From assembly GCA_003990745.1 (NCBI GenBank), contig RBNI01000470.1:1-30757 (forward strand): a stretch of DNA of 30,757 nt, given 5' to 3'. Origin of the DNA: Jimgerdemannia flammicorona. Lineage: Eukaryota; Mucoromycota; Endogonomycetes; Endogonales; Endogonaceae. Positions 5,301 to 5,761 of the stretch are shown here, one piece after another. The stretch's first letter is position 1, and each line of letters begins with the position of its first letter. The position numbers and the translations under genes were made by a program. The notes below the pieces were generated by a model. It searched no databases and was not told where the DNA came from. It was given only the letters and a program-made list of their open reading frames with translations.

Positions 5301-5761
5301 GGAGATATTATTGCTGAGGCAGATAGCCAGACACAATATATAACTCATGAAAATAAAATAAATAAATAAATAAAAAGGAAGATATTATTGCCGAGGCAGA
5401 TAGCCAGACACAATATATAACCCATGAAATAAAATAATAAAAAGGGAAATATTATTGTCGAGGCAGATAGCTAGACACAATATATAACCCATAAAAATAA
5501 AATAAATAAAAGGGAAATATTATTGCCGAGGCAGATAGCCAGACACAATTATATAACCCATAAATAAAATAATAAAAGGTAGAATCATCGAGGTAGATGG
5601 TCAGATATGATATACATATATGCAAAATATACCTTTGGAGCTCTCGAAGCTGTTCGTTTAGATATAGTAGGCTTTGTCGCTATTGGTAGTGGATCAAGCA
5701 ATTCTTTGGTTGGTGCACAACCGAATGTGGATTTCTTTGCTGTTTGCCTGGTGCGGGCCAT
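2356..5761 (-). pseudogene. H3-tail-mimic / PHD-like multi-exon gene, copy 1 (decayed)
   Basis: Seen: exon 1 (5761-5633, 43 codons) begins [20 protein letters not shown], matching 14 of the first 20 residues of mature histone H3 and keeping K9, S10 and T11; K4 is R and K14 is C. A GTATAT donor follows, then a minisatellite-filled intron. Exon 2 (4972-4776) encodes a PHD-like series: CxxC, C, CxxH, C, and WICPMH. Exon 3 is 4699-4586, exon 4 4493-4287, exon 5 starts at 4227 (FFDALFKLSIYSDINLVLLV). A probable exon ends at 3418; another is 3361-2960 (cysteine-rich, then acidic); the next starts at 2882. A heptad-rich coiled coil ends at 2356. Exons 3, 4 and 3361-2960 are whole-codon lengths with phase-0 junctions. 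Damage: exon 2 lacks 10 bp present in the second copy, which shifts the frame; the coiled-coil region has stops and a shift. The exon path at 4150-3650 is unresolved. Inference: a transposon-associated or multicopy chromatin-directed protein. Its function is unknown. Confidence 0.7.
5040..5610. repeat. Minisatellite, about 69-bp unit, nine copies, inside intron 1
   Basis: GCAGATAGCCAGACAC recurs at 5043, 5113, 5181, 5250, 5319, 5396, 5463 and 5531, with a degenerate copy near 5592. Units carry an AT-rich tail of AAATAAAA runs. The unit is close to 23 codons, so the minus strand stays open over much of the array and would encode hydrophobic repeats (ILCLAICL). The position between a good donor (5632) and acceptor (4973) argues that it is intronic. 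Confidence 0.9.

Follow-up and report, generated by a model that had tools for sequence, protein, structure and literature searches.

An H3-like exon and related gene pieces in the window

We analyzed a stretch of 30,757 nucleotides on contig RBNI01000470.1 of Jimgerdemannia flammicorona, hereafter called the window. The exon under study lies on the reverse strand and opens a copy of a gene family, the pieces of which are summarized in Table 1 together with the intact genes found elsewhere in the genome. Translation of the exon gave a peptide identical to the first 20 residues of histone H3 at 14 of 20 positions when the start Met is counted and at 13 of 19 when it is not, with K9-S10-T11 aligned. 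Both the extent of this identity and the register of K9-S10-T11 had been noted originally, and both were borne out by the translation. The exon is followed by a GT donor at 5632, and the AG acceptor of the first intron ends at 4973.

Table 1 Pieces of the gene family in the window and intact genes elsewhere in the genome.
Feature	Position	Strand	Description
Exon 1, subfamily A copy	5633..5761	-	43 codons: H3-tail look-alike and short linker
Intron 1	4973..5632	-	660 bp, mostly 69-bp minisatellite (5043-5577)
Exon 2	4779..4972	-	Rich in Cys/His, PHD-like by eye; out of frame with exon 1
Exon 3	4586..4699	-	114 nt; equal length in C607 and C5768
Exon 4	4299..4493	-	195 nt, matching C5768; donor AT, not GT (alignment to C5768)
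Exon 5 fragment	4153..4227	-	Homology to other copies ends at about 4153; last exons missing
Tail exon, subfamily C copy	17942..18109	-	Codon 41 is an in-frame stop
Pieces of the last exon, same subfamily C copy	16640..17326 (17249-17326, 16640-16800)	-	Gene middle missing
Cys/His-rich exon, third copy (subfamily A)	30006..30206	-	In-frame stop; contig end 0.55 kb away; first exon not found
Last-exon remnant of the family	11937..12134	+	37% identity, one stop
Intact gene C607 (subfamily C)			7 exons, introns 77-534 bp; 380 residues
Intact gene C1768a (subfamily C)			Arrangement as in C607; 381 residues
Intact gene C5768 (subfamily A)			6 exons; 374 residues

The exon had been assigned to a multi-exon gene. 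Compared with the intact copies, exon 2 of the window copy has lost 10 nt at about 4951/4952; splicing of 5633 to 4972 is consequently out of frame, and a stop follows after 27 further codons. Because of this frameshift, the lack of a GT donor at exon 4 and the loss of homology in exon 5, the window copy is, as judged from its DNA, a dead relic, and the intact members of its family sit elsewhere. The predicted multi-exon product thus holds for the intact copies but not for the copy in the window.

The neighborhood is rich in repeats and contains a piggyBac-like piece (DDE_Tnp_1_7; 9218-9812, reverse strand), a piece of a FAR1-domain gene (12910-13851, forward strand) and a weak piece of a DDE_3 gene (26037-26552, reverse strand). 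A protein kinase reading frame (6362-7468, forward strand; PF00069, E 3.6e-42) is divergent from the H3-like exon at a distance of about 600 bp. The minisatellites at 5043-5577 and 30467-30740 are related, with units of 63-77 bp; the former lies inside the first intron, where similar arrays are found in other subfamily A copies. Repeat arrays with units of about 120-200 bp, direct and inverted, occupy 24020-25716 and 28240-29073.

Members of the family and their layout

In the whole genome (134.8 Mb, 7754 contigs), H3-like tail starts were found at 27 loci belonging to several subfamilies. The genome looks fungal by its size, its short GT-AG introns and a weak match to Pkinase_fungal below the cut-off; a search for hydrophobins gave no match in it or in 14 control genomes. 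Fifteen places came from a six-frame search with the exon peptide, five from a second tail type, and seven from upstream reads, which are short stretches beside related exons. This tally leaves out C5469, judged to be a chance match, and C6089, an H3-like gene; for the second tail of C171, which is frameshifted after residue 8, later positions were counted as lost. Subfamily A consists of the window exon at 5761, C5172, C2486, C5768, C5262, C4898 and C171, with a close relative at C272. Subfamily B comprises C2165 and others (MARTKQTTKKSTFG) plus the C278 group, and subfamily C comprises C607, C1768, C2392, C272 and others. Homologues with a conserved H3-like start, on which the original prediction depended, are present within this genome at all 27 loci. 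Since such starts recur this often and the codon changes among them are mostly silent, a chance likeness to H3 was rejected.

A family exon lies downstream of 19 of the 27 tails. Six of the other eight are at contig ends or internally deleted, and for C4898 and the first C171 tail no downstream family exon was found within about 7.8 kb. Cys/His-exon loci also number 27 in our list, and a tail lies upstream of 17 of them. Five without a tail lie too close to a contig end for their upstream part to be present; for five others, the 0.96-2.2 kb of upstream sequence read contained no tail. Counted together, the genome holds 48 family loci on 40 contigs, with the weak places C6185, C1532 and C2229 left out and the two neighboring C607 genes merged. 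Two or more loci occur on six of the 40 contigs, against a mean of 0.18 and a maximum of 3 in 5000 trials of random placement under an assumed size distribution of contigs.

The predicted association with repeats was supported by this number of loci but not by the flanks of the intact C607 gene, around which no transposase or long terminal repeats were detected, only short inverted matches. No common boundaries were found across the copies compared; the ends of upstream homology differ between groups. The C2392 copy is internally deleted.

Gene models built from the DNA gave three intact genes with 6-7 exons encoding 374-381 residues, and all of their junctions are GT-AG. The first introns of four modelled relatives measure 465-1249 bp. 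Common to the intact genes are an H3-like tail, a variable linker, a Cys/His-rich exon, and a C-terminal region with conserved GDLWFE and G-x-GTY-x-H motifs, the protein ending soon after C-K/N-A. When an intact relative was compared with the PDB, 60 of 128 matches were listed, all of them H3-type histones aligned to query residues 1-45 (best E 0.0022). The family profile gave the same picture, as the 60 of 131 matches listed were all H3 or H3-type variants in the first 40 positions (best E 0.00057). The region after the tail had no significant relative in Pfam, NCBIfam or the PDB, and below-threshold matches (PF16346, E 0.049; NF005473, E 0.11; PF15716; PF19335) were set aside as unrelated. 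In agreement with the claim that the tail is not joined to a histone fold, Pfam detected no histone domain in the four full models at E <= 10.

Protein database searches returned none of 1397 candidates for a single query and none of 2407 for a four-sequence alignment at E <= 10, results that speak only for the candidates scored. Viral contigs gave 116 pattern matches but no relative at E <= 1e-3, and a viral origin was not supported. The gene family has apparently not been described before.

In C607, the Cys/His module reads C-x2-C-x9-C-x4-C-x4-C-x9-C-x8-C-x2-H, with one extra Cys inside x9 and W two residues before the seventh ligand. The module ends with W-x-C-P-x-H, which we take to recall PHD fingers. 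Its Cys spacing differs from C4HC3, and no PHD match was obtained in a Pfam search of 10 members or in a PDB profile search with the Cys-rich exon. An AlphaFold model of the Cys/His exon in the window had a mean pLDDT of 52.6, too poor for a fold search. The exon had been called PHD-like; this description fits its Cys/His-rich appearance by eye but found no counterpart in the profile searches.

Exons encoding an H3 fold were found only on other contigs (C5406, C6089, C1731 and C4669) in an H3 search of the genome. With no histone fold at the locus and H3 loci elsewhere, a true H3 gene or pseudogene was rejected. The histone H3 gene on C5406 has the same tail start as the mimic; the former has R8, K14 and a histone fold, all of which the latter lacks. 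An intron directly follows K4 in C5406, whereas the mimic exon is without an intron there. The first intron of this canonical gene is apparently GC-AG. At C6089 (1-2000), an intronless H3-like gene with several Arg-to-His changes and a CpG observed/expected ratio of 0.31 looks like a decayed H3 retrocopy.

Conservation and change in the H3-like tail

We compared the 27 tails position by position. Met is present in 25 and is combined with A, V or T in 23, and the predicted N-terminus resembles that of PAF15 in pattern (Met, then a small residue and an R-T-K-like sequence). A1 was kept in 19/27, R2 in 13/27, T3 in 24/27, Q5 in 25/27, T6 in 24/27 and A7 in 22/27, and position 4 is K in 15 tails and R in the other 12. 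K9, S10 and T11 were each kept in 25/27. R8 was kept in none and is K in all 27, G12 was kept in 7/27 (F in 18/27), G13 in 22/27 and K14 in none. R2 was lost in 14 tails, in 11 of them to C, H, Q or a stop, changes expected from the decay of CpG codons, and A1-R2-T3 is intact in all three intact genes.

Some tails have no Met or contain internal stops, and the intact subfamily A copy C5768 carries T6I and A7V. On C607, a B-type copy (12300-13900; also given as 13.6-14.6 kb) upstream of the intact gene has lost Met-Ala-Arg, with only an 11-residue stretch of the tail kept and the Cys/His and last exons open. This copy may use another first exon.

The tail was then set against the rest of the protein in three subfamily models, C607, C5768 and C2165, the last with two in-frame stops written as X. 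Pairwise identity reached 69-85% in the tail (residues 2-14) and 35-45% in the Cys/His exon; it was 14-21% over what is left of exon 1 and 33-37% in the remaining exons. A codon test covered six tails out of the 27, picked by hand for being less decayed; in each of the 15 pairs, which are not independent of each other, amino-acid changes were fewer than in a neutral simulation with an equal number of base changes (P <= 0.007 each). Between C607 and C1768a, dN was 0.020 and dS 0.065 over the whole gene, and exon 1 had zero synonymous changes with a dN of 0.015. On the basis of the contrast between tail and linker, the codon test and the whole-gene dN and dS values, the tail has likely been under purifying selection within this one genome.

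In the first exons and flanks of seven subfamily A copies, 31 C-to-T or G-to-A changes fell on 7 CpG sites, compared with 27 on 28 CpA/TpG sites. The canonical H3 gene had a CpG observed/expected ratio of 0.92, and the nine family copies examined had ratios of 0.14-0.68. Decay of this CpG type would fit DNA methylation of the copies.

The start of the tail exon was also inspected. In subfamilies A and C, a motif resembling a 3' splice site, AG after a branch-point-like sequence, abuts the ATG, so that a 5' exon upstream of the tail exon is likely. If such an exon were coding and in frame, the tail would be internal rather than a free N-terminus. An in-frame genomic stop lies nine codons upstream in seven of nine subfamily C copies, and splicing of this kind would remove it.

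Possible roles of the tail

We tentatively read the tail as a decoy or docking peptide with a free N-terminus, which would occupy readers of the H3 tail, be kept by selection and escape methylation at K9; we regard this as possible but short of probable. Removal of the start Met, suggested by the A, V or T that accompanies it in most tails, would expose A1 as in H3. The exposed tail could then dock in pockets for the H3 tail, namely those of PHD or WD40 domains, of H3K4-side enzymes, or of the protein's own Cys/His module. PHD-type pockets read A1-K4. K8, together with F12 in most copies, would make the tail a poor substrate of K9 methyltransferases, and hence a decoy or docking peptide rather than a bearer of the silencing mark. 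This reading draws on the recurrence of the tail at 27 loci, the intact models, the conservation of the tail, its silent codon changes, K8 in every copy and the absence of a histone fold.

The protein had originally been proposed to attract or titrate silencing machinery, which would include the K9 methyltransferases as enzymes acting on the tail, and its gene would be a candidate part of a selfish element. According to excerpts of PMC8303541, any replacement of R8 abolishes SUV39H1 activity, and R8 is also needed by SUV39H2 and G9a. The Neurospora enzyme DIM-5 had no activity with R8A or G12P in the portion of PMC3248561 consulted, and only a mild effect of R8A on DIM-5 binding is cited in an excerpt of PMC2797608. 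The recognition stretch R8-K9-S10-T11-G12 is thus not found intact in the family, where R8 has changed in every tail and G12 in most, and the inner three residues are mostly kept. Because R8 is replaced in all 27 tails and SUV39H1, SUV39H2 and G9a depend on it, the part of the proposal concerning a K9 substrate is weakened. Titration without methylation could still take place, since K9-S10-T11 was kept in 25/27.

Several points speak against a decoy with a free N-terminus. An upstream coding exon may exist, the B-type copy on C607 is without Met-Ala-Arg, K4 is replaced by R in 12/27, and C5768 carries T6I/A7V. In addition, exon 1 shows no synonymous change between C607 and C1768a, and the conservation concerns one genome only. 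The presence of K8 in all copies could reflect a founder effect. Finally, K9-S10-T11 was kept as often as T3-A7, which also suits a peptide held by K9 methyltransferases. The K9-S10-T11 codons contain no CpG, and therefore these codons also decay less.

In the latter case, a tail with K8/F12 would lie in the groove of a K9 methyltransferase without turnover and would weaken the silencing of the family's own repeats. We consider this unlikely, but it stays alive because K9, S10 and T11 are so strongly retained. The CpG-type decay of the copies, which would fit their DNA methylation, agrees with it, and the host may own the machinery: a Pre-SET domain match was found at C525 (E 4.9e-17; none in 14 control genomes), along with two weak matches to DNA methyltransferases (E 5.0e-4 and 7.8e-4). 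A precedent is the mammalian protein EZHIP, which imitates the K27 region of H3, whereas the family here presents the A1-T11 region at its predicted N-terminus. Like the family here, EZHIP is not a histone and contains an H3-like peptide in altered form; it acts on a histone methyltransferase as an inhibitor of PRC2 and is named an 'oncohistone mimic' in excerpts of PMC12713659. However, the positions changed in our tails, R8 and G12, are contacts that such enzymes need; affinity may be lost along with turnover. The effects known from Neurospora were seen with entire H3 genes rather than with a free tail.

Binding of the tail by the protein's own Cys/His module, leading to autoinhibition or head-to-tail assembly, would make the family a self-regulated chromatin factor, a view to which we give a low probability. 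It accords with the tail lying upstream of 17/27 Cys/His-exon loci and with the module ending that we take to resemble PHD fingers, but it sits poorly with the failure of Pfam and PDB profile searches to recognize a PHD finger, with the poor model of the module and with a Cys spacing unlike C4HC3.

It is rather improbable that the basic start serves as a nuclear-import or DNA-contact peptide, its H3 likeness being left over from an H3 sequence captured long ago. The tail is basic, the intronless H3-like copy at C6089 indicates that H3 retrocopies may occur, and traces of AP-x-K that subfamily A shows past position 14 point to an origin from H3. Charge alone, however, leaves the retention of T3, Q5, T6, S10 and T11 unexplained in the face of turnover in the adjoining linker. 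Persistence by common descent alone, as a functionless relic spread with repeats, is very unlikely: many copies are decayed and some tails have lost Met or gained stops, but the synonymous/nonsynonymous pattern in the tail, its contrast with the linker and the three intact gene models argue against it.

Returning to the decoy or docking peptide, we compared the family with known systems. The SNAG motif of SNAIL/GFI1 is an N-terminal H3-imitating peptide that holds a chromatin enzyme (LSD1 docking). It has little sequence likeness to H3, whereas 13/19 mature positions match H3 in our case. Another system is PAF15/PCLAF, a non-histone protein whose H3-imitating N-terminus is bound by the H3-tail-reading PHD finger of UHRF1 with a Kd of 2.2 µM, compared with 1.5 µM for H3 (excerpts of PMC7060239). 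PAF15 is a vertebrate protein and is described in these excerpts as one protein, not as a repeat-borne family. In the family here, for which such binding is a prediction, the resemblance to H3 extends as far as T11, and a Cys/His module comes after it. The VANC proteins of Arabidopsis VANDAL transposons are sequence-specific anti-silencing proteins and so a repeat-encoded family countering silencing, which for the family here would be a possibility only; the portions of PMC5735166 and PMC10398659 consulted mention no histone mimicry for VANCs.

No report of a fungal or repeat-borne H3-tail family was found among the papers listed in searches of the open-licence PMC literature. Histone mimics in the literature found are mainly single animal and viral proteins, and here a whole family occurs in a fungal genome. 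Histone mimicry itself is already known; what appears new is a repeat-rich gene family whose conserved H3 start carries the R8K change. Even at about 35% identity between subfamilies, the H3 start and the identical change at R8 are common to them. The family is therefore a natural experiment on which contacts of the H3 tail matter, and its peptides are directly testable.

A bolder proposal, which we hold to be improbable at present, is that a repeat-borne family captured the H3 tail as an unmethylatable R8K decoy that vies with real H3 for silencing or reader proteins, each active copy weakening the chromatin defence for all members of the family. If true, the fungal genome's own repeats would encode a histone-mimic system against silencing, and any such anti-silencing role would constitute a new route for repeats to escape genome defence.

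Other reading frames were observed beside the intact C607 gene. Downstream of it (L055:3505-5013, reverse strand), a PD-(D/E)XK nuclease frame (PF08011, 7.5e-15) and a predicted AAA-ATPase frame (PF09820, 2.6e-8) face the family gene on the other strand, in a region partly common to the C2392 copy. The replication protein A OB domain PF16900 is weakly matched at L055:6264-6833 (reverse strand; E 0.0011, below the cut-off), and a rolling-circle element is its possible source.
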